NCBI RefSeq assembly: GCF_007994075.1
Contig: NZ_VIWU01000001.1
Span: forward strand, 7,130,001-7,194,000
Length of the DNA stretch: 64,000 bases
Origin: Pseudonocardia hierapolitana
GTDB lineage: Bacteria > Actinomycetota > Actinomycetes > Mycobacteriales > Pseudonocardiaceae
Direction: 5' to 3'
The notes under the pieces were generated by a model that did no database searches, was not told the origin of the DNA, and saw only the letters and a program-made list of their open reading frames with translations. The stretch's first letter is position 1, and the number at the start of each line of letters is the position of its first letter. Made by a program: the position numbers and the translations under genes. This document shows, piece after piece, positions 3,885 to 54,838 of the stretch.

Positions 3885-3921
3885 CGACCGCTCCCGGATC
3901 ATGCGACCCCCTCGAACGGGC

Positions 3922-5133: not shown

Positions 5134-5159
5134 GAACCGCGTAGTCATCCGAGGCCACC

Positions 5160-5821: not shown

Positions 5822-5901
5822 GGGTCGATCGGTCGGGTGCATCCGGCCCCCCGGTCGGGCGACTCGACCCGCGAGTCGCCTTGCCGGCCGGTGACGATGC
5901 T

Positions 5902-7986: not shown

Positions 7987-8050
7987 AGCTTACGGACAGC
8001 AGCAGAAACATGAACTGGATCTGGTGCTCACGGCGGTGAACGCTCGGCCC

Positions 8051-8953: not shown

Positions 8954-8963
8954 GATGATCGGC

Positions 8964-9860: not shown

Positions 9861-10020
9861 GAGCGCCCTGAACAACTCCGACCTACTGCGCGTCGCCCGG
9901 GCGGCGCCCTCGCCGCGTTGGACGATCGCACCGATACAACAGCGGTATCGGCCCGATCGTCCGCCTGCGATGGCACCACCTGGACCCCGCTCGCTACGGC
10001 CGGAGTTGATCAGGACCCTC

Positions 10021-10779: not shown

Positions 10780-10798
10780 GCCCGGAGCCTGCCTGCCG

Positions 10799-11155
10799 CT
10801 AGGCCGGCCCGTCCAGCCGGGTGGCGAGGCGTTTCGGCGCCACCTGGCGGTAGGCGTCGGTGACGATCTCCTCGATCTCGGTCCAGTCCACGTCCGGCAC
10901 GTCGAGGTACACGCCGAGCCAGCCGCGGACGCCGACGTAGGGCGGGCGGAAGAACCGCGACGGGTCGGTGGCCACGAGTTCCTCCTGCACGCCCGGCGGG
11001 GCCGCGCACCAGAACGCGAGGCGGTCGTCGTGGTGGTGGTCGGCGAACATCACGAAGGTCTTGCGCACGAACCAGGTCGGCTCGCCGTGGCTCAGCTTCT
11101 CCGTGACCTCGGGCAACCCCGTGCAGATGGCGCGGAGCCGCTCCAGCGGCGTCAC
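10799..11155 (-). CDS. MmcQ/YjbR-family protein
   Basis: 118 residues. 'GLPEVTEKLSHGEPTWFVRKTFVMFAD' marks the MmcQ/YjbR (CyaY-like fold) family, and the C-terminal 'WTEIEEIVTDAYRQVAPKR' helix is typical. These small double-wing proteins are thought to bind DNA or act in stress, but their role is not established. The GTG start at 11155 overlaps the methyltransferase stop (GTGA), so the two are translationally coupled. This supports the start choice even though the frame is open far upstream. Confidence 0.82.
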   Translation of the reverse strand: MTPLERLRAICTGLPEVTEKLSHGEPTWFVRKTFVMFADHHHDDRLAFWCAAPPGVQEELVATDPSRFFRPPYVGVRGWLGVYLDVPDVDWTEIEEIVTDAYRQVAPKRLATRLDGPA

Positions 11156-12153
11156 CCCGGGACCGCCCGCAGCACCGAGTAGCCCGACCCGCCCGCCGGG
11201 GTGACGTCGGTGAGCCGCAGCCCCGCCGCGGTGAGCAGGTCCGCGAACTCCGCCTCGGTGCGCTCCCGTCCGCCCGTGCAGACGAGCATGTTGAGATCGC
11301 TCATCAGGAGCATGCGCTGGTCGCCGAGCACCTGCGGATCCTCCCGGAGGATCGGCTCCACCAGCAACAGCACCCCATGAGCCGGCATCGCCTCCCGCAC
11401 GCGGGAGAGGATCGCGACGCTGCGCTCGTCGTCCCAGTCGTGGATCACGCTCTTCACGACGTACGCGTCGGCGGCCGGGACCGCGGTGAAGAAGTCGCCG
11501 GTCACCACCGTGCAGCGCTCGGTCACCACCGGATCGCCCACCCCGGAGGGCGAGTCGAACAGGATCCCCTGCAGGTGGGGGTGCGCGTCGAGGAATGCGG
11601 CGAGCAGGGTGCCGTTGCCGCCGCCGATGTCGGCGAGGGTCGTGACGCCGGTCAGGTCGCATGCGGCGGCGATGCCGGGCGCGGCCATCCGCGTGCCCTC
11701 GGCCATCGCCTCGGTGAAGATCGCGTTCAGGTGCGGGTCGTCGGCCATGTACGCGAATGCCGGCCTGCCGGTGACCTTCTCGAACGCCACGTCCCCCGTC
11801 CGGACGCTCCACTCCAGCTCGCCCCACGCCCGCCAGACCGCGTCGCCGCAGAACAGCTGCGCCAGGTTGCCGATCGAGCCGGGGAGCCCGGTGCGCAGCA
11901 GCTGCCCGCCGGGGGTGAGCGCGTAGGTCCCCTCAGCGGTCCGGTCCACCAGGTCCAACCCGATGGCCGCGCGCAGCAGCCTGAGCAGTGCGCCCGGGTG
12001 CGCGCCGGTGCGGGTGGCGAGTGCGTCGAGGGCGAGCGCGCCGTCGCCCAGCGCGTCCGGCACGCCGAGCCGGGCGAGGGTCTGCACCACCTGGGCCGGG
12101 AAGAACCCGAAGACCAGCCCGGCCACCCGTTCCCGTTCCGCCGCTGCGGTCAC
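11152..12153 (-). CDS. SAM-dependent O-methyltransferase (acetylserotonin/hydroxyneurosporene OMT family)
   Basis: 333 residues. An N-terminal winged-helix dimerization domain (about 1-110) precedes a Rossmann methyltransferase with SAM motif 'LADIGGGNGTLL' (about residues 165-176) and the catalytic-His block 'VIHDWDDE'. This is the family-2 O-methyltransferase architecture of natural-product tailoring enzymes. It overlaps the upstream VOC gene and the downstream YjbR gene by 4 nt each, so it is part of a coupled operon. No PKS or NRPS genes are nearby, so the hydroxylated substrate is unknown. Confidence 0.88.
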   Translation of the reverse strand: MTAAAERERVAGLVFGFFPAQVVQTLARLGVPDALGDGALALDALATRTGAHPGALLRLLRAAIGLDLVDRTAEGTYALTPGGQLLRTGLPGSIGNLAQLFCGDAVWRAWGELEWSVRTGDVAFEKVTGRPAFAYMADDPHLNAIFTEAMAEGTRMAAPGIAAACDLTGVTTLADIGGGNGTLLAAFLDAHPHLQGILFDSPSGVGDPVVTERCTVVTGDFFTAVPAADAYVVKSVIHDWDDERSVAILSRVREAMPAHGVLLLVEPILREDPQVLGDQRMLLMSDLNMLVCTGGRERTEAEFADLLTAAGLRLTDVTPAGGSGYSVLRAVPG

Positions 12154-12536
12154 GGCTTCACCTGCGGCCGGTAGCTCCCGACGGACCAGATGTTGCCCTC
12201 CGGGTCGCGCACGGCGTACTCGCGCGAGCCGTAGGGCTGGTCCACCAGCTCCTGCACGACCTCGGCCCCCGCCGCGACGGCGCGGTCGTGGTGGGCGTCG
12301 ACCGCCTCGGCGGAGTCGAGGGCGAGGTAGACGACCGCGCGGCCGGTGTCGAACGGGTCCGCCGTGCCGCGCCGGGTGCCGACCATGACCACGCCGTCGC
12401 CGAAGCTCAGCTCGGCGTGCCCGACGGTGCCGTCGTCGGCGGTGGAGAGGTGCTGCTCGACCAACCCGAGCGTGCCCGTGAGGTACGCGATCGCCGCCCG
12501 GGCGTCGTCGTAGCGGAGGGTCACGTAGATGCTCAT
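12150..12536 (-). CDS. VOC (glyoxalase/bleomycin-resistance) family protein
   Basis: 128 residues with the two beta-alpha-beta-beta-beta repeats of VOC proteins: 'YDDARAAIAYLTGTLGL' at the start and 'YAVRDPEGNIWSVGSY' at the end, which carries the metal-ligand or core Glu position. It is similar to PhnB/glyoxalase-like actinobacterial proteins and may be a small dioxygenase, isomerase or binding protein. It is the first gene of the operon, 56 nt after an AraC-type gene on the same strand, and its stop overlaps the methyltransferase GTG start. Confidence 0.85.
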   Translation of the reverse strand: MSIYVTLRYDDARAAIAYLTGTLGLVEQHLSTADDGTVGHAELSFGDGVVMVGTRRGTADPFDTGRAVVYLALDSAEAVDAHHDRAVAAGAEVVQELVDQPYGSREYAVRDPEGNIWSVGSYRPQVKP

Positions 12537-12592
12537 GCACCAGACCGTAGGAACCGTCGCGGCCGACGGCTTGGACGAATGGGAACCGGTGC

Positions 12593-13417
12593 TCAGCTCC
12601 ACTCGGCCAGGTACTCGCTGGGCGTGCACGCGGCGAGCGCGTGGAACTCGCGCACGAGGTGGGCGTGGTCGGCGTACCCGCATGCGGCGGCGACGTCGGA
12701 GATCGAGGCCGCCGTGACCGGCCGCGCCGAGATCTGCTGGGTGCCGTAGGCGCTGGTCGGGGCCAGCAGCCGGGCGGCGCGCTGGAACCGCAGAACCCGC
12801 GCGGCCGTCTTCGGGCCGAGGCCCACCTGGCCGCGGAAGCGGTTGAGCAGGTGGCGGCGGCTCCAGCCGGTGTCGGTGGCGAGCTCCTGCACCCCGACCC
12901 GACCCGCGCTGCGCACCAGCTGCCGCCACGCCCACGCGACCTCCGGGTCCGGCCGGGCGGCGGACGCGTCGAGGCGGCGCAGCAGCGCGTCGTCGAGCAG
13001 GGCGAAGCGGCGCGGCCAGTCCGGCGCATCGGCCAGGCGGGCGGGCAGGTCGGCCAGCTCGGGCACGTCGAGCTCGGTGAGCTGGGGCGCCACGTTGGTG
13101 AGCTCCGGCATCGGCCTGCCGAGCAGCGCGAAGACACCGAGCGGGCCCAGGTCGACCTGCACTCCGAGCTGGTGGCCGACGTACTCGGTCAGGACCGGAC
13201 CGTCGTGCATGCCGGCCAGGAACGAGGCCGGGGCAGAGGGTCCCGCCGGGCCGTGCAGCCGGATCCGCGGGCCGAGGCTGATGATCAGGGTGCACGAGGC
13301 CACGGGCGCCTGCCGGCGCCGCACCGGCGTGCTGCTGTGCTCCCGGTAGCCCAGGTAGCGCACGACGTACCGGGCGAGCGCGGGGTGCGGCCGCCCCAGG
13401 GAGTACTCCCCGTCCAC
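12593..13417 (-). CDS. AraC-family transcriptional regulator
   Basis: 274 residues. The C-terminal two-helix-turn-helix domain (about residues 165-270) shows 'ATDTGWSRRHLLNRFRGQVGLGPKTAARVLRFQRA' and ends with the AraC signature region 'ISDVAAACGYADHAHLVREFHALAACTPSEYL'. The N-terminal 150 residues are a variable sensor without an obvious cupin metal site. The gene leads the VOC-methyltransferase-YjbR-hydrolase run and may be its activator, though it could also be co-transcribed with it. Confidence 0.88.
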   Translation of the reverse strand: MDGEYSLGRPHPALARYVVRYLGYREHSSTPVRRRQAPVASCTLIISLGPRIRLHGPAGPSAPASFLAGMHDGPVLTEYVGHQLGVQVDLGPLGVFALLGRPMPELTNVAPQLTELDVPELADLPARLADAPDWPRRFALLDDALLRRLDASAARPDPEVAWAWRQLVRSAGRVGVQELATDTGWSRRHLLNRFRGQVGLGPKTAARVLRFQRAARLLAPTSAYGTQQISARPVTAASISDVAAACGYADHAHLVREFHALAACTPSEYLAEWS

Positions 13418-41960: not shown

Positions 41961-42446
41961 CTACGAACGGCGCTCCCCGCCCGGGGGAGCGCCGTTCGTC
42001 TTCTCCGGCACCCGCAGGCGGTGCACGGACACCCGCGCCGGGCGCACCGAGCGGCCGTCGACCTCCAGGCCGGGTTCCAGCAGGGCGGCCACGGTGCGGT
42101 CGAGCGCCGCGTCGTCTGTGGTCAGGACCTCCGCCGCCTCCATCGTGGCGGCGCTGAACGCGTGCCCGGGGCGCGGTGAGACCAGGGTGCCGCCACGGCC
42201 GGCGAGCAACCGCTCCAGCCCGGCCGCGATCGCCTCGAACGCCGCGCGCTCCTTGCGGGTGCGGGTGGTCGCCGCGCAGGCCAGCGCGTCGGATCGCAGG
42301 GCGTGCAGCTCCACGAGCAGCGGCACGTCCGGACCGGCCCGCGTGCCGCCCTCCGCCAGCCGGGCGAGCGCTGCGGACTGGCGCGTGACGAGCCGTGACA
42401 GGTCGTCCACCTTGTCAGCGAGGTCCTGCAGTGAGGGGTCGGCCAC
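41961..42446 (-). CDS. GrpE-like nucleotide exchange factor
   Basis: 161 residues. The N-terminal 40 residues form a coiled coil ('LQDLADKVDDLSRLVTRQSAAL') and a helical bundle follows. The C-terminal beta domain shows 'HAFSAATMEAAEVLTTDD' and 'GLEVDGRSVRPARVSVHR', which align with the GrpE end (HEA..; G..L..RVLRPARV.V). It is divergent from an Hsp70 gene with 29 nt between starts and would serve as its exchange factor. It is clearly distinct from housekeeping GrpE. The C-terminal tail is encoded by the terminator stem. Confidence 0.75.
   Translation of the reverse strand: MADPSLQDLADKVDDLSRLVTRQSAALARLAEGGTRAGPDVPLLVELHALRSDALACAATTRTRKERAAFEAIAAGLERLLAGRGGTLVSPRPGHAFSAATMEAAEVLTTDDAALDRTVAALLEPGLEVDGRSVRPARVSVHRLRVPEKTNGAPPGGERRS
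41963..41999. terminator. Bidirectional terminator hairpin after yebC
   Basis: A perfect 16-bp stem (41963-41978 with 41984-41999) with a 5-nt loop begins 17 nt after the yebC stop and is followed by CTTCTCC. The same bases encode the last residues of the convergent GrpE-like gene, so one hairpin serves as the 3' end signal for both genes. Confidence 0.85.
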
Positions 42447-42475
42447 CCGGGGGAACCTATCGCTACTCTCCGGTC

Positions 42476-44158
42476 GTGGCCGTCCACGGTATCGATCTCG
42501 GCACCACGAACTCCGCCATCGCCCACACCGGAATCGACGGACGGCCCGAGGTGCTCGAAGGGCTGGCGGGTTCGCCCACCACGCCGTCGGTGGTGTTGTT
42601 CGCCGGCCCGGACGAGCACGTCGTGGGGGAAGGGGCGCGCCGGGAGGCGCGGCTCGACCCCGAGCACGTTTGCGCGCTGGTGAAGCGCCGGATGGGCGAC
42701 GCCGAGTGGCGGTTCGTGGCGCACGGCAAGGCCTGGTCGGCGCCCGCGGTGTCGGCGCTGATCCTGAAGAGCCTCGTCGCCGACGCCGCGTTCGCCACCG
42801 GGGAGACCCAGACGTCCGCGGTGATCACCGTGCCCGCCTACTTCGGCGACGAGGAGCGGCGCGCCACGGTCCTGGCCGGCACCTATGCCGGGCTGGACGT
42901 CGTCGACGTGCTGTCCGAGCCGATCGCCGCCGCGCTGTCCTACGGATTCGGGCGGCTCGACGCCACGCCGGACCTCGCCAAGGGGGATGCGCACGAGACC
43001 GTGCTCGTCTACGACCTCGGCGGCGGCACCTTCGACGCCACCGTGATCGAGCTGGCCGACCGGCGCATCGCCGTGCTCGCCGTGGAGGGCGACCACCAGC
43101 TCGGTGGCGCTGACTGGGACGAGCGGATCGCCCTGCACCTGTCCCGCCGGTTCTGCGCCGAGAACCCCGACGCCGAGGACCCCCTGGACGACTCCGCGGG
43201 GTCACAGGCGCTGGTGCTCGCCGCCGAGCGCGCCAAGCACCAGCTCACCGACGCCGACAGCACCGACGTGGTCGTCGCCCACGACGGCGCCCGCTCGGTC
43301 GTCAGGATCACCCGGGCCGAGCTGGAGGAGATGACGGCCCCGTTGCTGCGTCGCACCCTCGACCTCACCCGCGCCTGCCTCGCGGAGGCCGCCCGCCGCG
43401 GGGTTCCTCGCGTCGACCGCGTGCTGCTCGTCGGCGGATCGTCGCGGATGCCGGTCGTCGCCGCCGCCCTCCGCGACGAGCTGGGGCTCGAGCCGCGGCT
43501 GCACGACCCCGATCTCGCCGTCGCCCGCGGCGCGGCGCTGTACGGGGAGAAGAAGGAGCTCGAGCGGATGGTCGCCGCCGACCTGCGCACCCGCGGCCGG
43601 CTGCGCGACGGCGTCCCGCTCGACGACGCCGCGGCCCCTGATCTGGACGACGCCTGCCGCCGCGTCGCGGACGCCTACGGGGTGGCGCTGGTGCAGGTGC
43701 GCCGCGCGGTGGAGATCCAGGTCGACACGGTCGTCTCCCGCGGGTTCGGCGTGCTCGCGATCAACGGGTTCACCGGCCGGCTCGAGGCGTCATGGCTGGT
43801 GCACCGCAACGACCGACTGCCCATCCGCACCAGCCGCTCGTACGGCACCATGCGCGCCGACCAGGACGTCATCCAGGTCACCGTCGTCGAGCAGCAGGGC
43901 CAGGCGGAGTCGGCCCGGCCGGAGGACGTGAAGATCCTCATCGCGGGGGAGATCACCGGCATCCCGCCCGGCTACGACGAGGGCAGCGAGGTGCGGGTGA
44001 CGTTCGAGATGGGGTTCGACGGGGTCCTGCACGTCACCGCGTTCCACCTCGACGCCGGCATCCCCCTGCAGCTCACCGCCACCACCGGGGCCACGCTCTC
44101 CCAGGCCGAGGTGGCGCGCGAGCGCGACCAGCTGGGGAAGACCCGCCGACGTGGCTGA
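42476..44158 (+). CDS. Hsp70-family chaperone, lidless form
   Basis: 560 residues. The ATPase domain has 'GIDLGTTNSA', 'VYDLGGGTFDATV' (about 180-192) and 'LLVGGSSRMPVV' (about 320-331). The substrate-binding part is short: a beta-sandwich with 'FEMGFDGVLHVTA' near the end, and no alpha-helical lid or EEVD-like tail. Housekeeping DnaK has 610-640 residues. GTG 42476 gives the canonical Hsp70 start; the frame is open slightly upstream. The stop overlaps the next gene by 8 nt. Paired with a GrpE-like gene and a TerD gene, it is probably a specialised stress chaperone. Confidence 0.9.
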   Translation: MAVHGIDLGTTNSAIAHTGIDGRPEVLEGLAGSPTTPSVVLFAGPDEHVVGEGARREARLDPEHVCALVKRRMGDAEWRFVAHGKAWSAPAVSALILKSLVADAAFATGETQTSAVITVPAYFGDEERRATVLAGTYAGLDVVDVLSEPIAAALSYGFGRLDATPDLAKGDAHETVLVYDLGGGTFDATVIELADRRIAVLAVEGDHQLGGADWDERIALHLSRRFCAENPDAEDPLDDSAGSQALVLAAERAKHQLTDADSTDVVVAHDGARSVVRITRAELEEMTAPLLRRTLDLTRACLAEAARRGVPRVDRVLLVGGSSRMPVVAAALRDELGLEPRLHDPDLAVARGAALYGEKKELERMVAADLRTRGRLRDGVPLDDAAAPDLDDACRRVADAYGVALVQVRRAVEIQVDTVVSRGFGVLAINGFTGRLEASWLVHRNDRLPIRTSRSYGTMRADQDVIQVTVVEQQGQAESARPEDVKILIAGEITGIPPGYDEGSEVRVTFEMGFDGVLHVTAFHLDAGIPLQLTATTGATLSQAEVARERDQLGKTRRRG

Positions 44159-46148
44159 TCTTGCGCCGTTCGATCCCAACGACTACCGCAAGCGCGTGCT
44201 CGCCGCCGTCGAGAAGCGCGGCGGGCCGGACGCGTCGGACCCGTTCGAGCTCTACGACCTGCCCCCGGTCGACGACCTGGACGACGCCGCCGTCGCCGAG
44301 CAGGTCGCCGAGGTGTGGGCCGCTTGGCAGCGCCAGCGCGACCACCCGAAGTACCGGGTGCTCGTCGGGCTGCTCGTGCAGCAGCACGCGCAGCGCAGCG
44401 CCGAGCTGCTCGACGCCCGGCGGCGCCGGATGGCCGCGGCTCGGGTGCGCGCGCAGCGGGAGCAGCGCGACTCCGCGCGCTACGAGCTGCTCGACGCCGC
44501 CATCCGCCGCCTGGTGCAGCGGCACCGCGGGATCCCCGCGGACAAGGTGGAGGGCCTGTACGAGGTGGGTGCGCTCGCGGGGCTGAGCCGCGCCGAGGTG
44601 GACGCGCGGTTGGGGCGGCACCGGGTGCTGCCGACGGCCGCGTCGGCACGGGAGCCTGCGATCGGACCGGAGCGCCGCCGGCAGGTGCGCGCCCTGCTGG
44701 ACGAGTTCGGCAGGCTCACCGGCGATCCGGCACCGCCCACCCTGCTCGCGCTGCTCGGGCTGGGCCCGGACGCCACGGCCGAGCAGGTGCGCACCATGGC
44801 GGGCGCCTGGCGGGCACGCGCCCGGGAGCTGCCGCCGGAGCGGCTGCGGGCCGTGGTGGACGAGCTGCTCGTGCACGTGTCCGAGCTGCTGGAGCCGGGG
44901 CGCGAGGCCGTCGACGCCTACCTGGAGGCGGTGGCGGCCGACGTCGCCGAGTACCTGCGCCCCCGGGTGCGCGCCGCGGTGCTGGTGGAGGACCGGCTGG
45001 TCGCCGAGGACCGGGAACACCTGCTGGAGGAGGCCCTGGAGCTCGGGCTGGACCGCCGCCGGGTGGCCGCGCTGATCGCCGCGCTGGCCGAGGAGCTGGG
45101 GGTGGGCGTCGACGGGCCCGCGCCTGCTCCTGCGCCGCCGGCCCCGCCCCGCGTGCGGGAGTGGGAGGAGCCGCTGAAGGCGGCCCGTGCGGCGCTGCGG
45201 GCGGGCCGGCCTGCGGAGGCGCAGCGCCTCGTCGGGGTTGCCGAGCAGCACGCCGGCCACGACGGGGGCACGCGGGTGCGGGCGGTCGCCGGCGAGGTCG
45301 CCGCCGTGCTCGCCGACGCCGAGACCCGCTGGCGCGCAGCCATGGCCGCCGTCGAGGCACGTCGGTGGAGCGAGGCCGTCGAGATCCTGGACGGGCTCCG
45401 GCGGACCGCGGCCGACGTACCCGGCCCGCGGGGTTCCTCCGTCGAGGATCTGCTGCGGGAGGCGCGCGCCGCGCTGGAGCGGGCCGACCGGGCCGTCGCC
45501 GCCGCGCTCGGCGGTCCGGTGGCCGACCGGGCCCGGGCCCTGTCCGCGGTGCTCGCCGACTGCGCCGGCCACCCCGGCGCCACCGCGGCCCTGCAGCAGA
45601 TCCCTGTCGCCGCCCCGGCCTGGGTCAGCGCGGCCCGCGACGCCCGGGGCGACGTCCTGGTGCTGTGGGCCGCGTCCATCACGCCCGACGTCGCGTACCG
45701 GGTGAGCCGGCAGGGCAGCGACGGCCGGTGGCAGGTGCTGGGCCGCACCGACACCACCTCCATGGACGACGGCGGAGCTCCGGTCGGGGTCGAGGTTCCG
45801 GTGTACGCGGTGGTGGCGATGCACGCCGGACGCGCATCGGGGGAGACGCGCTCGGACGCCGTGCACGCGGTGGAGCCGATTGCCGTTGCCCGTGGGCCGC
45901 AGCCGCCCCGGGACGTCCGTGCGCTGCGCACCGCGGGCGGCACCGTGCGCGTCAGCTGGACCGGATCGGGCGAGGTCGAGTACCGGGTGCGCAGCCTGAC
46001 CCCGGACGGGCGATGGCGGGTGGTCGGGCGCACGCGGGACCTGTCGATCGAGGACGGCGGTGCCCCCTCGAACGGCCCCGTACCCGTGTACGGGGTGAGT
46101 GCGGCGGCCGGCGGCGAGCGCTCGCCGGAGATCCACTCGGCGCCGTGA
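44151..46148 (+). CDS. Hsp70-partner protein: possible degenerate J-like N-terminus, helical middle, two FN3-like C-terminal units
   Basis: 665 residues, overlapping the Hsp70 stop by 8 nt. Residues about 30-95 ('DPFELYDLPPVDD', 'VAEVWAAWQRQRDHPKY', 'SAELLDARRRRMA') follow a J-domain layout with HPD replaced by HPK; this is inference. Residues about 170-460 are Ala/Arg/Glu-rich helices, perhaps TPR-like. The C-terminus has two tandem beta units (about 485-570 and 580-660), each with 'DGRW.V.GRT' and 'DGGAP', resembling FN3 domains. No signal peptide. Likely a co-chaperone or scaffold that brings clients to the adjacent Hsp70. No function is established. Confidence 0.7.
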   Translation: MADLAPFDPNDYRKRVLAAVEKRGGPDASDPFELYDLPPVDDLDDAAVAEQVAEVWAAWQRQRDHPKYRVLVGLLVQQHAQRSAELLDARRRRMAAARVRAQREQRDSARYELLDAAIRRLVQRHRGIPADKVEGLYEVGALAGLSRAEVDARLGRHRVLPTAASAREPAIGPERRRQVRALLDEFGRLTGDPAPPTLLALLGLGPDATAEQVRTMAGAWRARARELPPERLRAVVDELLVHVSELLEPGREAVDAYLEAVAADVAEYLRPRVRAAVLVEDRLVAEDREHLLEEALELGLDRRRVAALIAALAEELGVGVDGPAPAPAPPAPPRVREWEEPLKAARAALRAGRPAEAQRLVGVAEQHAGHDGGTRVRAVAGEVAAVLADAETRWRAAMAAVEARRWSEAVEILDGLRRTAADVPGPRGSSVEDLLREARAALERADRAVAAALGGPVADRARALSAVLADCAGHPGATAALQQIPVAAPAWVSAARDARGDVLVLWAASITPDVAYRVSRQGSDGRWQVLGRTDTTSMDDGGAPVGVEVPVYAVVAMHAGRASGETRSDAVHAVEPIAVARGPQPPRDVRALRTAGGTVRVSWTGSGEVEYRVRSLTPDGRWRVVGRTRDLSIEDGGAPSNGPVPVYGVSAAAGGERSPEIHSAP

Positions 46149-46362
46149 CGTCCGGAGAGCTCGAGGCCGTCGACGGGGACGCCGCCGGATCCCGCGACGT
46201 GGGCGTTGCCTTCATCCTGTCCGTACTCGCCGGCAGTAATGTGCGCAACCGCGGGTTGGAGGCGCAGGGGGGCGAGACCCACACGACGGCCGACGGGCCG
46301 GCCGCAGACCACGGCGGCGTCTGATCAACCTGCGATCTGTTCACGGCTACGAGGGGGTACGT

Positions 46363-46941
46363 GTGAGTATCAACATGACCAAGGGTCAGAGGGTGTCGCT
46401 GGCCAAGCGCGGCGGCGGCACCCTGACCCTGGTCCGGATGGGCCTGGGATGGGACGCGGTGAAGAAGCGCGGCCTGTTCGGCTCGAAGTCCCAGTCGATC
46501 GACCTCGACGCGTCCGCGCTGCTGTTCGACACCGGGGGGAACCTGGTCGACGCCGTGTGGTTCCGGCAGCTGCGCAGCGGGGACGGCGCCGTGCAGCACA
46601 CCGGCGACAACCTCACCGGTGCCGGCGAGGGCGACGACGAGTCGATCCTGGTGGACCTCACCCGGCTGTCGCCGAGCACCACGCAGATCGTCTTCACGGT
46701 CAACTCGTTCACCGGCCAGGACTTCTCGCAGATCGAGAACGCCTTCTGCCGGCTGATCGACGACACCACGAACGACGAGCTGGCCCGCTACCAGCTCACG
46801 GGATCGGGCCGGCACAACGCGCAGATCATGGCCAAGGTGAGCCGGGACGGCGCGGGCGCGTGGAGCATGACCGCGATCGGCGCCACCGCCAGTGGCCGCA
46901 CCTTCCAGGACCTGCTCCCCGCCACCTCCGCCCACCTCTAA
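46363..46941 (+). CDS. TerD-family calcium-binding stress protein
   Basis: 192 residues, one full TerD domain: 'KGQRVSLAKRGGGTLTLVRMGLGWD', 'IDLDASALLFD' and the acidic metal block '[15 protein letters not shown]' (about residues 75-90). TerD domains bind calcium at paired sites and act at the membrane or in assemblies. It has the long insertion 'VKKRGLFGSKSQ' typical of the TerZ/TerD group linked to other modules. GTG 46363 follows a GAGGGGG site. It comes 214 nt after the Hsp70 partner gene on the same strand and is convergent with a GH13 gene, overlapping by 4 nt. Confidence 0.93.
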   Translation: MSINMTKGQRVSLAKRGGGTLTLVRMGLGWDAVKKRGLFGSKSQSIDLDASALLFDTGGNLVDAVWFRQLRSGDGAVQHTGDNLTGAGEGDDESILVDLTRLSPSTTQIVFTVNSFTGQDFSQIENAFCRLIDDTTNDELARYQLTGSGRHNAQIMAKVSRDGAGAWSMTAIGATASGRTFQDLLPATSAHL

Positions 46942-48281
46942 GCGAGCACGCCCCAGCCATGGGGCGGCACGACGACGCGGGCGGCCGGGCCCGCCCGGCG
47001 CAGCTCCCCGCTGCCCGCGAGCAGCTCGGATGTCCCCGGAGCAGGCAGGTCGGCCGCGTCGTCGTCGAGGTTGAGCGCGAGCAGGAGGCGGTGGTCGCCG
47101 TCCCCCTGCTCGGCCACGGACTCCAGCACCGCCAGCCGGTTGTGCAGTTCCACCGGAGTGGTCCGGGCCCGGTGGAGCCACGGGTGCCGGCGGCGCAGCC
47201 CGATCAGCTGCTGGTGGAGCCGGTAGGTCGGCCACCCCCACGGGGCGAGCCCGTCCGGGCCCTCGTCCGGGAAGGCGGGGCGGATCGCGTCGTCCCCGCC
47301 CTCCCGGTGCTCCTTCACACCGCGGAACGCCTGCTCGTCCCCGTAGTAGATCGACGGGGTCCCGCCGACGGTCAGCAGGACCGCGAGGGCGTGCGGGAGA
47401 TGCCGCTCGTCCGGGAGCGCCGACGCGATCCGCGTGACGTCGTGGTTGCCGACGAACGTCAGCGGCACGAACGAGTCGAGGAAGTCGTTGTGCCGCTGCA
47501 GCGCCCATGCGAGCTCGTGGAGGTTGCGGTCGGCGAGCGAGCTCCACACCGCCTTCCACAGCTCGTACTGGGTAACCGCGTCGACACCGCTGCGCTCGAC
47601 GATCTCCCCGTAGTCGCCGTGGATGACCTCGGCCACGACGTAGGCGTCCGGATGCCGGGCCCGGACCCGGGGGAGCACGGCCGCCCAGAACTCGGGCGGC
47701 ACCGCGTACGCCGCGTCCAGCCGCCACCCGTCGGCGCCTGCATCGAGCCAGTGGTTCATGACGTCCACGACGTAGTCCGCGACCGCGGGGTTGGCGTGGT
47801 CGAGGGCGACCAGGGCGTGATGGCCCTCGAAGGTGTCGTACTCGGGTTCCGACCCCGGCCCGGCGGCGTCCGGCCGGCTCCGCCGGAACCAGCCGGCCTC
47901 CGGCGCTCCCGGCCCCTCCGCGAGGGTGCGGGCGAACGCCGGGAACCCCCGGCCGACGTGGTGGAACACCCCGTCGAGCAGCACGCGCAGGCCGCGGGCA
48001 CGGGCCGCGGCGAAGAGGTCGGCGAGGTCGTCGGCGTCGCCGAGCCGCGGGTCGACGCGGAAGTGGTCCACCGTGTCGTAGCCGTGCGTCCCGGAGGCGA
48101 ACACCGGGCCGAGCGCGAGCCCGGAGGCGCCCAGCTCCACGGCGTAGTCCAGCCACCCGACGATGCGGTGGAGCCGGTGGCGCACCGGGCCGTCGATCGA
48201 GTCGAGGGCCGGCTCGGCCCCCACGAACCCGAGCGGGAACACCTGCCACCAGATCGCGTGCCGGACCCAGTCGTCACCCAT
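46938..48281 (-). CDS. GH13 alpha-amylase-family glycosidase
   Basis: 447 residues, a cytoplasmic (no signal peptide) alpha-amylase-fold enzyme. Conserved regions are present: region I 'DGVFHH', region II 'GWRLDAAY' with the nucleophile Asp, region III 'VAEVIH' with the acid/base Glu, and region IV 'FVGNHDV'. It is similar to neopullulanase or cyclomaltodextrinase-like enzymes acting on short alpha-glucans or trehalose-type substrates. ATG 48281 follows GGGAGG. It sits between the Hsp70-TerD operon and the Ter biosynthetic operon. The functional link is uncertain, though glycogen or trehalose turnover is part of stress responses. Confidence 0.9.
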   Translation of the reverse strand: MGDDWVRHAIWWQVFPLGFVGAEPALDSIDGPVRHRLHRIVGWLDYAVELGASGLALGPVFASGTHGYDTVDHFRVDPRLGDADDLADLFAAARARGLRVLLDGVFHHVGRGFPAFARTLAEGPGAPEAGWFRRSRPDAAGPGSEPEYDTFEGHHALVALDHANPAVADYVVDVMNHWLDAGADGWRLDAAYAVPPEFWAAVLPRVRARHPDAYVVAEVIHGDYGEIVERSGVDAVTQYELWKAVWSSLADRNLHELAWALQRHNDFLDSFVPLTFVGNHDVTRIASALPDERHLPHALAVLLTVGGTPSIYYGDEQAFRGVKEHREGGDDAIRPAFPDEGPDGLAPWGWPTYRLHQQLIGLRRRHPWLHRARTTPVELHNRLAVLESVAEQGDGDHRLLLALNLDDDAADLPAPGTSELLAGSGELRRAGPAARVVVPPHGWGVLA

Positions 48282-48451: not shown

Positions 48452-48907
48452 CTACAGGTCGAAGTCGGCAGGCGAGATGCCGACCGCGTTGCAGACGTCG
48501 CGCACGGTGCGCTTCTCGTTCTCGTCGAAGGAGCCGTCGGCGCCGCCGATGATGATGCCGACCTGGATCACGGCACGGGCGGCCTCCGGCTTCGACTTGA
48601 GCTTGCCGATGGTCGCGACGGATTCCAGCTTGCCGAACTCGAAGTCCTTCTCCAGCTTCGAGGCATAGAACTCGAAGTGCTGCTGCAGCTCCGAGGGCGG
48701 GAACACCGACAGTGCGTCGTTGCTGGAGATGAAGCCGATCATCTTGGTCCGCTCATCGGCGGAGATGGTGCCGTCGGCCGCGGCGATGAGGGCGCACATC
48801 GCCATGCTCGCCTTCGCGAAGTCCTTGTTCTGGAACTTGCCGACCTGCACCTTCGTGTCGGCCGTCAATCCCTGCAGCCGGGACTTGAGCTGGTCCCACA
48901 GCGCCAT
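48452..48907 (-). CDS. terB: TerB-family protein
   Basis: 151 residues, matching canonical TerB: 'VGKFQNKDFAKASMAMCALIAAADGTISADERTKM' in the first half and the second metal-binding repeat 'IIGGADGSFDENEKRTVRDVCNAVGISPADFDL' at the end. TerB is an all-helical protein with two Asp/Glu metal sites, found at the membrane with TerC/TerD. Last gene of the operon, 35 nt after the HAD gene, followed by a strong hairpin. Confidence 0.96.
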   Translation of the reverse strand: MALWDQLKSRLQGLTADTKVQVGKFQNKDFAKASMAMCALIAAADGTISADERTKMIGFISSNDALSVFPPSELQQHFEFYASKLEKDFEFGKLESVATIGKLKSKPEAARAVIQVGIIIGGADGSFDENEKRTVRDVCNAVGISPADFDL

Positions 48908-48942: not shown

Positions 48943-49782
48943 TCACAGACTGCCAGAAACGGACATCGCGGCGGATACCGCCCGATCTCGCAGCCAGTCG
49001 AGCAGCTCGGCGCCGGCCGCGACGCCGGTGGCCGCGGTGACGGCGACGTGCGGCCGCGTGAAGCCGGTGGCGGCCAGCTCGCCGTGCGCGGGACGGATCG
49101 CCGCGTCGGCCGCGTCGAGCAGGTCGGCGTCGAGCAGGGAGTCGCCCGCGGCCAGCAGCGGACCGCCGCCCCCGCAGCGGGCCACCACCTCGGCCGCCGC
49201 CGCCGACTTCGTCAGGCCGGCCGGCACGGCGTAGACCTTGCGGCCCTGCAGCGACACCGTCCAGCCGCGCCGGGCACACCAGTCGGTGAGCTCGTCCACC
49301 CATCCGGCAGGCAGCGCGGCCCGCTCGACGACCGCGTACGCGAAGAGCCCGCTCGCCTCCCGCAGCGACAGCACGAACGTGCCGCTGCGGGCCTGCATGT
49401 GGGCGTACACCTCGGCGAGGGGGGCGCATGCCGCGACCCGGTCGCGCACGACGGCGTCCCACCCGGGGTCGGCGACGCCGTCGACGAGCAGGTGCCCGCC
49501 GTTGCTCGCGATCGCGTACCGCGCGGGCGGGCCGGGCAGGCGGACCCGGGCCAGCTGCGCGGGCGTGCGGGTGGTGGTGGGCACCACCGTGGCGACGTCC
49601 TGCAGCTCCCGAAGCGTCACCGCAGCGGCCTCGGTGAGGAACGACAGCGGCGCGCCCTTGTGGATCTCGACGCACAGCAGCCTCGGCGCCTCGTGGTCGG
49701 GGGTGCGCAGGTCGAGCGCCGCCGCCGAGTAGATGACCGTGCGGTCCAGGTCGAGGCAGGCAACGGGGCCGACGGCCGTCAT
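48943..49782 (-). CDS. HAD-superfamily phosphatase of Ter locus
   Basis: 279 residues. 'CLDLDRTVIYS' near residue 12 is the HAD DxDx[TV] nucleophile motif, with later 'LTKSAAAAEVV' and 'LLAAGDSLLDADLLDAADAAI' (motifs III and IV) around residues 205-235. The spacing fits the Cof-type C2-cap group. HAD enzymes of this type recur in Ter biosynthetic operons and are predicted to dephosphorylate a nucleotide-like product. The ATG overlaps the StiP stop (ATGA). Confidence 0.88.
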   Translation of the reverse strand: MTAVGPVACLDLDRTVIYSAAALDLRTPDHEAPRLLCVEIHKGAPLSFLTEAAAVTLRELQDVATVVPTTTRTPAQLARVRLPGPPARYAIASNGGHLLVDGVADPGWDAVVRDRVAACAPLAEVYAHMQARSGTFVLSLREASGLFAYAVVERAALPAGWVDELTDWCARRGWTVSLQGRKVYAVPAGLTKSAAAAEVVARCGGGGPLLAAGDSLLDADLLDAADAAIRPAHGELAATGFTRPHVAVTAATGVAAGAELLDWLRDRAVSAAMSVSGSL

Positions 49783-50933
49783 GAGCCCACCGCCGCGAGC
49801 CCATCGGTGCCGGTGCCGGCACGCGTGAACCGGGGATGGATCAGCCCTACGCAGGTGTACGGCAGGTCGGCCACCTCCTCGACCGGGACGCCCCGGCGTC
49901 GTGCGAGCAAGCGGACGTGCGTCAGGTCGGCGGCGGGCGCGCCGGTGCGCACCAGCACCCGCCACGGCACGCGGCGCAGCAGCACCCGCGTGGTCTCCCC
50001 GACCCCGGGCTTGACGAGGTCGGCGTCGCCGATGCCGTACTCGTCGACGATCCGCTCCACCGCCGCACGCCCGGCGAAGTCGGCGACCCGGCCCGCAGGC
50101 TGCTCGGTGTCCGTGACTCCCGCGAACTCCGCGGTGACGGTGTCGAGGAAGTCGTTCGAGACGTCCACCGGCGCGAGCTCGCGGTAGAACTTCGCCCCGT
50201 GGTAGCGGCCGGGCGGCAGCAGGCGGGGGTTGAGCACGGTGCGGGACACCAGGCCGGAGACCGTCGAGTTGAGGCACGCGGAGGCGATCAGCCAGTCCGC
50301 ACGGGTGCCGAACGTGGTGGTGCAGCGGCCCGGGTCGGCGAGCACGGCGAGGTCCGGGTCGAAGCGCACCCCGGTGTCGCGTTCGTGATCGGAGAGGGCG
50401 GCGGCGAGCTCGCGGGAGATCGTGCCCTTGCCGGTCCAGCCGTCGACGAACACGACGCGCGCCGGGTCGTGGTGGGCGGCGAGGTGGCGCAGCGACAGCC
50501 GGTCGATGCCCCGGCCGCGCACGATCGACACGGAGTAGTGCGGCAGGTCGAGCCCGTGCGCGTAGCGCAGCCAGCGGCGCAGCAGCACGCCGACGGGTGT
50601 GCCGGCCCTGGCGAGCGAGACGAGCACCAGGTCGCGGCCGTGCCGTCCGCCGCGCTCGGCGAGCACCAGCTCGGCCACGGTGGCGACGGCCCGCGCGAGC
50701 CGCGGTGCCCCCGCCGCCAGTGCCGACCGGTACAGGCGCAGGTACTCCGCGTCCGGCTGGTACTCCTGCGGCAGTGATTCGGCGTAGTGGGCCCCGCCGT
50801 TCTGGACGGCCTCCTCGCGCTCCTCGATCGGTGCTTCCAGCGCGAGGTGCGAGATGTCGGTGAGCAGCCAGCCGACCTCGTCGGGGGCGTAGCTGCCGAA
50901 GGCGGGCCCGCGCAGCGGGTCGGGCGTGTTCAG
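49779..50933 (-). CDS. StiP-type protein: PRTase-like domain plus PELOTA RNA-binding-like domain
   Basis: 384 residues. The main domain (about 1-270) is the StiP family (PF11202), with 'LVLVSLARAGTPVG' and 'RVVFVDGWTGKGTI', a degenerate PRPP-binding loop. It is often labelled cysteine protease but was reinterpreted as a phosphoribosyltransferase relative. The C-terminal 80 residues ('WRVLVRTGAPAADLTHVRLLARRRGVPVEEV') fit PELOTA_1. No ATG, GTG or TTG lies near the family N-terminus; CTG 50931-50933, overlapping the previous stop as CTGA, is the probable start. It acts with the TRSP protein in the predicted nucleoside pathway. Confidence 0.85.
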   Translation of the reverse strand: MNTPDPLRGPAFGSYAPDEVGWLLTDISHLALEAPIEEREEAVQNGGAHYAESLPQEYQPDAEYLRLYRSALAAGAPRLARAVATVAELVLAERGGRHGRDLVLVSLARAGTPVGVLLRRWLRYAHGLDLPHYSVSIVRGRGIDRLSLRHLAAHHDPARVVFVDGWTGKGTISRELAAALSDHERDTGVRFDPDLAVLADPGRCTTTFGTRADWLIASACLNSTVSGLVSRTVLNPRLLPPGRYHGAKFYRELAPVDVSNDFLDTVTAEFAGVTDTEQPAGRVADFAGRAAVERIVDEYGIGDADLVKPGVGETTRVLLRRVPWRVLVRTGAPAADLTHVRLLARRRGVPVEEVADLPYTCVGLIHPRFTRAGTGTDGLAAVGS

Positions 50934-52336
50934 GGCGTCACCACCAGGGTCGTGCGGCGGGTGTACGGGGCGAGTGCCGGGAGCAGCCCGCCGTGCAGCG
51001 CGGGGGTGTCGGCAGGCGGGTCGACGACCACGAGGACGTGGTCCCAGTCGGCGGCTCCGATGTTGTAGGCGAACCGCGGGCCGGGCCCGTCGGCGGGGCC
51101 GTCGTGGGCGGGGAAGGTGATCCCGCTGGTCAGGGCGTAGCCGGGCTCGTCGACGACCACCGCGGGGGAGCGGGTGGTGGTGGAGAACGCCACGTTGTGG
51201 CCGGCGTCGGCCAGGGTCTGCGCCAGCCGCAGCGGCAGCTGCATCAGCTCCTCGGTGCCCAGCACGAGGGTCCGTTCCCCGAGGCGCATGCCGGCGGCCG
51301 GTGCGAGTGCATCGGCCAATCGCGGGAGCGCCGCAGCGAACGCCCGGTGCTCGGCCGCGCCGAACCCGTGCCGTGCCCCGGCCGGCACCCCGGCGGGCCA
51401 CCCCAGCCCGGCCAGCTCCACCCGCGAGTCGCGGTCCGGGTGCTCGCGGGTCGCGGTATGGGTGCACGCAAGTACTGCCTCCAGCTCGGCGCGCAGCGCG
51501 GTCGCCCGCTCGGCGACGTCGGGCGGGAGGTCGACCACGCCGCGGGCCAGCGAGACGACGTCGAGCCGGGCCCCGAGCGCGGCGACCCCCGCGGGGAGCT
51601 CCCCGCCCGCCGGCCGGACGTCGACGAGCGCCGCCACGACGTAGCGCTCCCGCGGTGACGCCCGGTGCAGCGCCGTGATCGTGTTGAGGACGGTGCGCCC
51701 GGTGGACAGCTCGTCGTCGACGAGCACGAGCGGGCGCCCCCCGCGGAGCAGGCCCGGGTCGGCGGGCAGCAGCAGGTGCTCGGTGGCGTGCGAGTGCTCC
51801 TCGGTGAACCCGCCCGCCGTGGCGAACCCGGGCACCGGCCGCCGGGTGGAGTGCAGAACGTCCGCGCCACCGAGGCCTTCTGCGACGCAGTGGCCGAGCG
51901 CGGTGGCCGTCTCGGCGAACCCGAGCACGAGCGCGTCGGGCGGCTCGCCGATCGCGGCCTGCGCCGCGGTGTGGAGGGCGGCGACGGCCGTGCGGTCGCC
52001 CTCCACCGCGGCGTGCAGCAGCGGCACGGGCAGCGTCCGGGCCGGCCGGTCGGCGAGCGCGTCGGCGACGAGGCCGCCCAGCAGCAGCCCGGCCGAGCGG
52101 ACGAGGCGCGGGTCGGTGGGCACGTGCTTGCCGAGCACGCGGGAGACGAGCAGCTGGGCGCGGCGCGGGTTGCGGCGCAGCGCGAGCCCGAGCAGCACCC
52201 GGGGGTCGGAACCCGCCCCGGTGGGGTGCAGCCGCACCCCGAGCCGGTCGATCACGCCTGCGGCGATCCCGGTCGTCGTCTGCTCGGTCGTCGTCTGCTC
52301 GGTCGTCGTCTGCTCGGTCGTCGTCTGCTCGGTCAT
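50930..52336 (-). CDS. Phosphoribosyltransferase with C-terminal TRSP domain
   Basis: 468 residues. After a TEQTT-repeat leader (residues 2-21), a PRTase domain follows with the PRPP motif 'LVLVDDELSTGRTVLN' near residue 205. The C-terminal TRSP domain (about 330-468) contains the 'LGTEELMQLPLRLAQTLADAGHNVAFSTTTRSP' region that gives the family its name (PRTase_2 + TRSP). It is predicted to attach ribose 5-phosphate to an unknown base or amide in Ter-linked metabolite synthesis. ATG 52336 overlaps the upstream stop, and the end overlaps the StiP start. Confidence 0.88.
   Translation of the reverse strand: MTEQTTTEQTTTEQTTTEQTTTGIAAGVIDRLGVRLHPTGAGSDPRVLLGLALRRNPRRAQLLVSRVLGKHVPTDPRLVRSAGLLLGGLVADALADRPARTLPVPLLHAAVEGDRTAVAALHTAAQAAIGEPPDALVLGFAETATALGHCVAEGLGGADVLHSTRRPVPGFATAGGFTEEHSHATEHLLLPADPGLLRGGRPLVLVDDELSTGRTVLNTITALHRASPRERYVVAALVDVRPAGGELPAGVAALGARLDVVSLARGVVDLPPDVAERATALRAELEAVLACTHTATREHPDRDSRVELAGLGWPAGVPAGARHGFGAAEHRAFAAALPRLADALAPAAGMRLGERTLVLGTEELMQLPLRLAQTLADAGHNVAFSTTTRSPAVVVDEPGYALTSGITFPAHDGPADGPGPRFAYNIGAADWDHVLVVVDPPADTPALHGGLLPALAPYTRRTTLVVTP
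52271..52330 (-). repeat. Four 15-bp tandem repeats at the start of the TRSP gene
   Basis: Four perfect copies of GGTCGTCGTCTGCTC on the plus strand encode (TEQTT)n directly after the initiator Met of the PRTase/TRSP protein. The unit is in frame, so copy number changes only the length of a flexible N-terminal leader. Slippage at this site could vary coupling to the upstream stop or protein level. Confidence 0.9.
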
Positions 52337-53517
52337 CGGGGCAGGCTCGCGGCCAGCAGGTCGACGAACGACACGCCGTCGGCGGCCACGCCGAACACCT
52401 GCGCCCGCAGCATGGTGTCGCGGGCCCACGCGGTGTGCGGGCGCACCTCGTTCATCTTGTTGCGGCGCACCGACGCGAGCACACCCCCGGCCCGCCGGGC
52501 GCCGAGCACGTCCGCGGCGTCGCGGTGCTCCTCGTGCGAGACCACGGACAACGCGTTGACGACGGCCACGTGGCTGGGGTGGATGGCGGTCTTCCCCGTG
52601 AGCCCGTTGGCGCGGTCGAGGGTGACCTCGCGGATCAGCCCGTCGATCGCGCGGGAGACGAGCTGGCCGCGCAGGTCCGGCTCGTCGTGCTCGACGAACG
52701 GCGACTGCCGCAGCTGGGGCTTGAAGATGCGCTCCGGTCCGCCGAAGTACTCCCAGACCGGGCCGGTGACCGTGAAGCCGGTGCCGTCGGCGCGGCCGAG
52801 CACGTTGACGACGTCGGCGATCAGGTCGCTGACCACCTTGACGTCGTAGATGGACAGGTCGGGCGAGCGGCGCAGCCCGTAGAGGGCGCACAGGTCGGTG
52901 GCGCCGAGGCGGATGGCGAGGATGCGGTGCCGCTCGCGGTGCAGCAGGTCGCGCAGCCGAGTGAGCTCCACGACGCGGGTCTCGGCGTACAGCACGGCGC
53001 CGGACTCGATGACCGGCATGACGCGCAGCGCCGGGCCCGGCCCGCCCGACAGGGCTCGGCGCAGCGCGTCGGCCTCGTCGACCGCGTGCAGGTAGACCGC
53101 CCCGAGCGCGGCGGTGAACTTGGGCAGCACGAACCCGTCGAGCACGGCGGCCGCCTGCCCGAGCCGGGACACCAGGTCGGGGATCTGGGCCGGCGCGCGG
53201 ACCCGGACGAACAGGAGCGGTAGCTCGGCCTGGTCCTGCTGGTGCAGTTCCACGAGCGCCGCGACGAGGTTGGCCTCGGCCTCGGCGAGGTCGTCGTCGG
53301 CGATCGAGTCCTCCAGGCAGACGACGACCGAGGTGACCCCGGCCGCCGCCTGCTTGGTGACGTCGGCGGCGAGCGCGGGACGGCTCGCCGGCATGTACAG
53401 CGTGGCGCCGAGGGCCACCGCGAGCAGATCGGCGGCGCTCTCGCGGCTGAACTGCTGCGGTGGAGCCTCGAACAGCGCGTCCGTATCGGACGCGCTCAGG
53501 TACCCGAAGTGCCGCAC
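52333..53517 (-). CDS. HpcH/HpaI (CitE-like) TIM-barrel C-C bond lyase of Ter locus
   Basis: 394 residues. TIM-barrel landmarks of the CitE/HpcH group are visible: 'VVCLEDSIADDDLAEAE', 'FVLPKF', 'VMPVIESG' and 'IRLGATDLCALYGLRRSPD' (about residues 230-248). The C-terminal region adds 'GKTAIHPSHVAVVNAL'. This is the C-C_Bond_Lyase family found in Ter operons, expected to make or break a carbon-carbon bond in the metabolite pathway. GTG 53517 was chosen over an upstream in-frame start from family fit. It overlaps the TRSP start by ATGA. Confidence 0.88.
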   Translation of the reverse strand: MRHFGYLSASDTDALFEAPPQQFSRESAADLLAVALGATLYMPASRPALAADVTKQAAAGVTSVVVCLEDSIADDDLAEAEANLVAALVELHQQDQAELPLLFVRVRAPAQIPDLVSRLGQAAAVLDGFVLPKFTAALGAVYLHAVDEADALRRALSGGPGPALRVMPVIESGAVLYAETRVVELTRLRDLLHRERHRILAIRLGATDLCALYGLRRSPDLSIYDVKVVSDLIADVVNVLGRADGTGFTVTGPVWEYFGGPERIFKPQLRQSPFVEHDEPDLRGQLVSRAIDGLIREVTLDRANGLTGKTAIHPSHVAVVNALSVVSHEEHRDAADVLGARRAGGVLASVRRNKMNEVRPHTAWARDTMLRAQVFGVAADGVSFVDLLAASLPR

Positions 53518-53579
53518 GGTGGAGCCCCCCTCGACGACGCCACCCCCGCGTGGCACGGCCTGCATCGCTGCCGCGAGCG

Positions 53580-54251
53580 CTACTTGCGCCCGCGCGCCCA
53601 CTCCATCCCCCAGCCGTACGCCGCGTCGACGTCTGCCTGGCCACCTCGGATGTAGCGCACCTCCCGGCGCACCACGAGATCACCGCCCCGGTTCTCCAGC
53701 ATCGCGATGACGCAGGTGGGCGAGCTGGGGTCGGGCTCGTCGAGCCGCACCTCGATCTCCGGCCCGCTCGCCGGGTGGAGCGTGACCACCCCGTCGGCGC
53801 TCGCCCAGTTCGGCACACCCTCGTAGATGAAGGTGAACACGAGGATGCGGCGGATCTCGTCGACCCGGGACAGGTCGATGAACATGTTCTCGCCGCCACT
53901 GGCGGAGCCGGACCGGTCGTCCCCGTCGAGCCGGACGATCGGTGTGCCGTGGTACGGCGCGGTGAACGCGTTGCCCAGCGCCTGCACCACGCCCTTGCTG
54001 CCGTCGGAGAACTCCCACAGGCAGCCGAGGTCGAGGTCGATCGCGTTGCCGCGGCGTTTGCCGAACAGGCCCCGGCTCTGCTGCTCGCCCGCGCTCCACT
54101 GGAGGTTGACGCGCAGCTGCCCGCCCGTCGCGCCCTTGGTGAGCGAGACGCTCGGTGCGGACTTCGTGAGCGTGACCTTCGAGAGCGAGACGCCGCCGCC
54201 GTCGGGGGCGGGCGGCTGGGCCTTCGGTCGTTTGGTGTAGTCGATCGCCAC
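53580..54251 (-). CDS. TerD-domain protein (TerA-like)
   Basis: 223 residues with a modified TerD domain. 'VSLTKGATGGQLRVNLQW' and 'NAIDLDLGCLWEFSDGSKG' are the N-terminal strands, 'LDGDDRSGSASGGENMFIDL' is the metal-binding loop, and the C-terminus extends beyond canonical TerD. The first 30 residues are Lys/Pro-rich and precede the core. It starts 8 nt after the stop of the upstream terD. Probably a calcium-binding partner of TerD. Confidence 0.88.
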   Translation of the reverse strand: MAIDYTKRPKAQPPAPDGGGVSLSKVTLTKSAPSVSLTKGATGGQLRVNLQWSAGEQQSRGLFGKRRGNAIDLDLGCLWEFSDGSKGVVQALGNAFTAPYHGTPIVRLDGDDRSGSASGGENMFIDLSRVDEIRRILVFTFIYEGVPNWASADGVVTLHPASGPEIEVRLDEPDPSSPTCVIAMLENRGGDLVVRREVRYIRGGQADVDAAYGWGMEWARGRK

Positions 54252-54259
54252 GACGGGCG

Positions 54260-54838
54260 TCAGCCGACGTTGACGCCGTAGTCGCGGGCGATGCCCACGA
54301 GACCCGATGCGTAGCCCTGGCCCACGGCGCGGAACTTCCAGTCGGCGCCGTTGCGGTAGACCTCGCCGAACACCATCGCGGTCTCGGTGGAGGCGTCCTC
54401 GGACAGGTCGTAGCGCGCGATCTCCTTGGAGTCGGCGGCGTTGACCACGCGGATGAAGGCGTTGCGCACCTGCCCGAAGCTCTGGCCGAGCTCGTCGCCC
54501 TTGTAGATGCTGACCAGGAAGACGATCTTGTCGGCCTCCGCGGGCAGGCCGGCCAGGTGGATCTTGATCTGCTCGTCGTCGCCCTCGCCCTCGCCGGTGA
54601 GGTTGTCGCCGGTGTGCTCGACGGTGCCGTCCGGGGTCGTCTTGTTGTTGAAGAAGATGAAGTGCCCGTCGGAGAGGACCTTGCCCTCGGCGCCCGCGAC
54701 GATCGCCGACGCGTCCAGGTCGTACTCCACGCCGGTGGTGGTGCGGGCGTCCCAGCCGAGGCCGACGACCACGTTGGTCAGACCGGGGGCCTCCTTGGAG
54801 AGGCTGACGTTTCCACCCTTGGTGAGGCTGACGCTCAC
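54260..54838 (-). CDS. terD: TerD-family protein (first gene of Ter operon)
   Basis: 192 residues, canonical TerD/TerE: '[29 protein letters not shown]' at the N-terminus, 'YDLDASAIV', the calcium block '[16 protein letters not shown]', and '[18 protein letters not shown]'. It opens the minus-strand operon terD-terA-like-lyase-TRSP-StiP-HAD-terB. GTG 54838 is preceded by GGAG, and an 18-nt hairpin lies 22 nt upstream in the leader. It is divergent from the NfeD-like/flotillin pair. Confidence 0.95.

Follow-up and report, generated by a model that had tools for sequence, protein, structure and literature searches.

A lidless Hsp70, a GrpE-like protein and an FN3 partner with putative J-like folds beside Ter genes of Pseudonocardia hierapolitana

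Within a stretch of 64,000 nucleotides from the genome of Pseudonocardia hierapolitana (C1:7130001-7194000, hereafter the window; the genome of 8.86 Mb is a single contig), we analyzed genes for a GrpE-like protein, an Hsp70 without a lid, a 665-residue partner protein and a TerD protein. The first three constitute a conserved unit, a trio and not a set of four genes, that lies next to further genes of the Ter type. We propose that this locus is a self-contained, dedicated and rewired Hsp70 machine attached to an actinobacterial Ter stress locus, a proposal for and against which we find the balance to be about even. A preliminary description of this DNA, which had seen in it a complete accessory chaperone team with its own exchange factor and a TerD member, was confirmed in part as to its observations and supported in part as to its interpretation, the calcium response, membrane clients and action under stress that it envisaged being conjectural.

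The conserved trio and its Hsp70

The GrpE-like gene (positions 41961 to 42446, minus strand, 161 residues) is divergent to the Hsp70 gene (42476 to 44158, plus strand, 560-561 residues, with an alternative start at 42473), leaving 26-29 bp between them, and the partner gene (44151 to 46148, plus strand) overlaps the Hsp70 gene by 8 bp. These three genes and that for TerD (46363 to 46941, plus strand; Pfam TerD E=6.7e-44, start possibly at 46375) were all confirmed as real, and near relatives of the window proteins come from Pseudonocardia. A gene that we take to be YebC lies upstream of them. Using the partner as the query of a genome collection we gathered 49 named loci, all of which therefore contain the partner by construction. 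The Hsp70 gene lies directly upstream of it in 49/49, at a distance of -53 to +22 bp in 45/49 gene models; the exceptions are a gap of 144 bp (L072), two broken partner models (L058 and L070) and a locus with no model (L073). A profile search recovered the GrpE-like gene in 39/49 loci, and the dedicated team of GrpE-like protein, Hsp70 and partner is conserved. The GrpE-like gene was not recovered at L048, at L063, where the contig is short and neither the Hsp70 nor the partner has an intact frame, or at the loci of Frankia, two Pseudofrankia and five Geodermatophilaceae. At L048 a large TerD-domain gene occupies its place; at this locus and at L045 an opposite-strand gene of 679-722 residues, the one with the clear TerD domain in L048, lies between the Hsp70 gene and YebC. 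Near the trio of Nocardia inohanensis a further GrpE-like gene (L059, 4143-4862, minus strand) scores 137 bits against the family profile.

For the Hsp70 we aligned 47 family rows to E. coli DnaK, whose numbering is used for the Hsp70 sites below. The nucleotide-binding domain (NBD) of DnaK matches residues 4-358 of the window protein, and the catalytic residues K70, E171, T199 and D201 are kept in 47/47 rows. Residues 441-549 align to 384-488 of a DnaK chain in PDB, the β-sandwich substrate-binding domain (SBD-beta), in which the groove positions 426, 436, 438 and 440 are hydrophobic and P419 is kept in every row. Between the two domains the family has 88-89 residues versus 37 in DnaK, or 51-52 additional residues in the window protein. 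The lid is absent, with 19-20 residues past position 507 in 45/47 rows and 55 in the remaining two, versus 131 in DnaK, as the preliminary description had claimed in assigning to this protein all ATPase motifs and no lid. A literature search for lidless actinobacterial Hsp70s, with most subscription journals outside its coverage, returned no description of this trio.

The sites through which DnaK contacts its co-chaperones have fared differently from the catalytic ones. Position 167 is D in 28/47 rows, G in 19/47 and R in none, and L112 and L131, the two most remote relatives, have D there as well; Q378 is replaced by Y or F and E217 by S or A. The seven other Hsp70-like paralogs of the genome that were aligned have S, T, R, T, V, E and A at position 167, and this diversity implies that loss of the arginine is common among divergent Hsp70s. 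The region 284-300, which bears the GrpE signature of DnaK, has 11 residues instead of 17 in 47/47 rows, while the positions of the 55/267 salt bridge are retained (R in 47/47, E in 46/47).

The GrpE-like protein itself scores 23.5 bits (E=5e-5) against the Pfam GrpE profile, below the cut-off of 25.8. For many of its close relatives, precomputed annotation lists PF01025, and its C-terminal β region aligns with the genome's own GrpE. Since the classical signature loop of the Hsp70 is six residues short throughout the family, the GrpE-like protein would presumably act by an altered contact; the short loop is indirect evidence against the classical one, and the earlier designation of the protein as the exchange factor of the system is not supported.

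The partner and its putative contact with the Hsp70

Comparison with J domains by VIA-align placed two J-like folds in the partner, at residues ~27-110 (J1; 44229 to 44480, plus strand, examined also by motif counts) and ~163-269 (J2; 44637 to 44957, plus strand), with scores that are weak and lie in the range that the tool calls uncertain; J2 was additionally matched by a profile (hhalign score 28.7). A helical middle region follows, and then two FN3 domains at residues ~488-570 and ~584-663 (45612 to 46139, plus strand), which were recovered by Foldseek against PDB, by a PDB sequence profile, by Pfam in relatives and as strands in the predicted model. An N-terminal J-like block and two FN3-like units had both been anticipated; the FN3 units are found, and the J-like fold is supported at the uncertain scores just given.

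The HPD motif of J-domain proteins is absent from J1 and from J2. The J1 loop of the window protein reads RDHPKY, with HPK in 31/33 rows and HPR in 2/33, and J2 has ELPPE at the corresponding place, where the family shows PPx in 23/33, RPD in 8/33 and PAG in 2/33. The HPK had been taken for a modified HPD, and we considered reading the loop as a plain D-to-K exchange in a J domain whose HP is otherwise fixed; this was rejected because the HP is absent in 20/29 distant relatives, in which mainly a [KR]Y pair persists. That basic pair is present in 31/35 rows, facing a non-basic residue 167 of the Hsp70. The surface before the loop is also unusual: the net charge of the 18 residues preceding it is 0 in 20/33 rows, +1 in 6/33 and negative in 7/33, versus +1 to +3 in 29/31 canonical J rows. 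A full inversion of charge across the J/NBD surface was likewise rejected, given that neither the J1 side nor the NBD patch 206-218 departs far from neutrality.

In DnaK and DnaJ, R167 and D35 are a tested pair, with R167H and R167A linked to D35N by suppression (PMC7289447, PMC13012618). A further paper states that changing the H or D of HPD abolished Hsp70 stimulation in every system tested (PMC8215388). In the machine that we propose, the Hsp70 retains its ATPase together with a hydrophobic peptide groove of the DnaK type, both evident from the alignment, and since it is lidless, clients would be expected to exchange fast and might be held mainly by the partner. The latter would be a dedicated co-chaperone and scaffold, docking on the Hsp70 through its J-like domains and possibly holding the client or a Ter complex with its FN3 domains. 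Lys67 of the partner and Asp167 of the Hsp70 may stand in for Asp35 and Arg167, with the basic-Tyr loop at the matching place, and such a rewired contact would insulate the Hsp70-partner pair from the housekeeping DnaK and DnaJ, while the GrpE-like protein might reset the cycle by its altered contact. The client would most likely be a Ter component, for instance a TerC/TerD/TerB membrane complex or the StiP/PRTase pathway, as the repeated linkage described below suggests.

Two observations weigh against such a rewired contact, namely that D or G at position 167 of the Hsp70 does not covary with K or R in the partner, and that the HP of the partner is unconstrained. The strongest form of the proposal, in which the J contact is swapped (Asp at 167 against a basic-Tyr loop), the GrpE relative resets the Hsp70 without the signature loop and the trio, independent of the housekeeping chaperones, provides the Ter machinery with its ATP-driven part, is one that we put forward with considerable reserve. 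A natural pair lacking both HPD and its arginine partner would put the HPD rule to the test and might be of use as an insulated pair of chaperones, and the Ter locus would gain an ATP-driven component with defined genes.

The best-surviving alternative is that the partner is not a J co-chaperone at all. Its J-like folds would then be vestiges, or helical bundles of similar appearance, that serve for binding only, and the Hsp70 would work as an ATP-dependent scaffold or switch and not as a machine for folding. The missing HPD, the replacement of R167, Q378 and E217 together, the mostly neutral charge before the J1 loop, the shortened GrpE loop, the loss of HP in distant relatives and the weak fold matches all speak for it. 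It must contend, however, with the invariant groove and catalytic residues of the Hsp70, the strict pairing of the Hsp70 and partner genes and the prevalence of a basic [KR]Y opposite a non-basic 167, and we regard it as somewhat doubtful, though a serious contender.

Distribution of the trio and its linkage to Ter genes

Matches to the partner were found in at least 24/62 genomes of the genus, at least 13/298 of the order and at least 2/396 of a sample of the phylum, a distribution that is patchy. The surroundings vary too, with genes of the infB/truB/rpsO type in Nocardia and of the argS/hom/thrC/rho type in Nocardioides (named by eye). Only 2/72,556 plasmid records have a partner match, one of the relatives being on a 152-kb Tsukamurella plasmid record (NZ_LR134461.1, 58903-59769), and a search of plasmids with the partner of L131, a locus described below, gave no match. 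None of 14 pattern matches among IMG/VR viral contigs was confirmed, and the four proteins have no match at E<=1 in the PADLOC defence library. The genome of the window has a second set of genes running in one direction (L017, 12070-17579 of that locus, genome positions 5938070-5943579), comprising a GrpE (46.6 bits), a dynamin-type GTPase, a divergent Hsp70 and a DUF6777 protein.

A comparable combination has been described in the neighborhoods of GAP1-N2 genes, where HSP70 and GrpE occur with an FNIII protein that is fused to DnaJ or TPR; some of these neighborhoods have an additional HSP70 from which the peptide-binding domain is missing (PMC7159879, the one relevant paper that the literature searched, with most subscription journals outside coverage, yielded on Hsp70 with FN3 and on DO-GTPase/GAP1-N2). 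Eight GAP1-N2 matches were detected in 7/396 genomes. One of these loci, L131, has in a row (3019-13294) genes for GrpE, a lidless Hsp70, an FN3 partner, DO-GTPase2 and GAP1-N2; its Hsp70 matches the family profile with 498 bits, carries D at 167 and is without the GrpE loop, and its partner gives a weak match of 14.8 bits in the J1 part. This set lends itself well to a comparison of residues 67 and 167. At L129 a different Hsp70 near a GAP1 gene gives a weak match of 54.6 bits. In the genome of the window there was no match to PF20013 at E<=0.01, the DO-GTPase family not having been searched, and we rejected membership of the trio in a GAP1-N2 system on the absence of such a match.

These data bear on a second alternative, in which the trio would supply the chaperones of a biological-conflict, anti-invader system of the sort proposed for theme 2 of the GAP1-N2 systems, with Ter proteins replacing the GTPase and GAP1. 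The set at L131 and the patchy distribution speak for it; the lack of any PADLOC or GAP1-N2 match, the location of the trio amid seemingly housekeeping genes in Nocardia and Nocardioides, its rarity on plasmids and the failure to confirm any IMG/VR contig speak against it, and on the whole we consider it unlikely.

The Ter linkage is most readily followed in Pseudonocardia, where in 13/13 loci with downstream DNA the partner gene is followed by a TerC-type gene and then by TerD (four further loci end too early for this region to be seen). The intact copy at L027 has the Pfam DUF475/TerC domain. In the window this gene is gone, and what is left before TerD is ~115 bp that blastn aligns to the end of the L027 gene (46211 to 46324, plus strand; phmmer E=2.7e-6), a 3' remnant that is the only trace of TerC in the window, to which the TerC search was confined. 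The three genes formerly read as an operon ending in TerD are present, but as the window TerC was lost in a deletion, their arrangement is a deletion derivative. TerD as a fixed fourth gene was rejected on this ground and on the lack of any Ter gene in the fetched DNA of 31/49 loci, three of these being Pseudonocardia loci whose contig stops at the partner. The other 28 come from Nocardia (16), Nocardioides (4), Tsukamurella (3), Pseudofrankia (2), Frankia, Blastococcus and Trujillonella, some of them being short contigs. The co-occurrence survey that the preliminary description had called for therefore upholds the trio and a recurrent Ter linkage, and it does not uphold TerD as an obligatory member.

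Ter genes were present in the fetched DNA of the remaining 18/49 loci (14 Pseudonocardia, one Gordonia and three Geodermatophilus) and in 5/8 further loci from a genome search, in which L114, without Ter, repeats L067. The linked lineages are Pseudonocardia, Gordonia and G317, Geodermatophilus and G611, G487, and G016/G486. At L112 the trio is embedded in a co-directional run ordered TerD-TerC-TerA-GrpE-Hsp70-partner-lyase-PRTase-StiP, the GrpE scoring only 18.9 bits to the family profile and having no Pfam match, and at L115 the co-directional order is Hsp70-partner-TerC-TerB-PRTase-StiP. Mapped on a tree with 56 Hsp70 rows, the Ter label requires 7 changes versus 17.9 when shuffled, a figure that is helped by near-copies, and it appears in five branches including the outermost, L112 being a long branch. 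Genomes contain few TerD genes (2-16 matches in each of 14 genomes), and both of the two matches in the genome studied here fall within the window, so that chance adjacency would presumably be rare. That an autonomous chaperone trio merely happens to adjoin Ter genes, as the 31 Ter-less loci and the TerC deletion behind the closeness of TerD in the window might suggest, is less likely still than the anti-invader alternative, in view of the five tree branches, the L112 and L115 gene orders and the scarcity of TerD genes. For the locus as a whole, the Ter link has firmer support than the preliminary description could have known.

The Ter locus of the window lies on the minus strand, downstream of an α-amylase gene (46938-48281, minus strand) that separates TerD from TerB; at L027 TerD and TerB adjoin without such a gene. 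It comprises TerB (48452 to 48907, from Pfam and the gene model), a gene presumed to be HAD-like (48943 to 49782, without a Pfam match and kept near StiP in relatives), StiP with a PELOTA domain (49779 to 50900; Pfam StiP E=4.4e-100 and PELOTA_1, start uncertain), a PRTase_2-TRSP protein (50930 to 52336, from Pfam and the gene model), a relative (52333 to 53565; 408 bits) of the L112 C-C bond lyase (gene 10846-12000, Pfam C-C_Bond_Lyase), a gene that we assume to be TerA-like (53580-54251) and a second TerD (54260-54838). The only tRNA called by ARAGORN in the window (47784-47867) has no clear identity, lies inside the amylase gene and is probably an artefact. A search for the HAIR heat-shock site found none near the genes; a single site with three mismatches, at 20183, is at chance level.

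Comparison with known systems

The Ter stress-response locus was reportedly delineated by Anantharaman et al. in 2012, and the window resembles it in having TerD, TerB, StiP and PRTase_2-TRSP genes beside the trio. To our knowledge the biochemical role of the Ter locus is still unclear, and we know of no Hsp70 trio among its components. The literature on Ter together with Hsp70, GrpE or DnaK and on the Ter-dependent stress response, searched with most subscription journals outside coverage, did not describe the trio.

Degenerate J domains of the Pam16 type are said to have a J-like fold without HPD; unlike these, the partner would combine two such folds with FN3 domains in a single protein.

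A functional parallel is offered by HscC of E. coli, a short specialized Hsp70 with the dedicated J partners DjlB and DjlC, no GrpE-signature motif and a link to cadmium stress; it retains the lid with a nine-residue deletion, and DjlB and DjlC are class C J proteins (PMC8215388). In the trio, by contrast, the lid is missing, a GrpE-like gene accompanies the Hsp70, and D or G replaces R167. DjlB and DjlC have the HPD motif. Of the systems compared, HscC is the nearest functional parallel.

Theme 2 of the GAP1-N2 systems is alike in bringing together the same three kinds of genes, HSP70, GrpE and FNIII, and at L131 its Hsp70 is lidless, homologous to that of the trio and carries D at 167. It differs in that the trio is linked to Ter genes and that the partner of the trio, devoid of HPD, joins two FN3 domains to two putative J-like ones. 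Given the homologous set at L131 and the lack of a GAP1-N2 match in the genome of the window, the trio is a relative of the GAP1-N2 chaperone set in a Ter-linked setting. It is thus not entirely new, an HSP70/GrpE/FNIII set having already been published in GAP1-N2 neighborhoods (PMC7159879).

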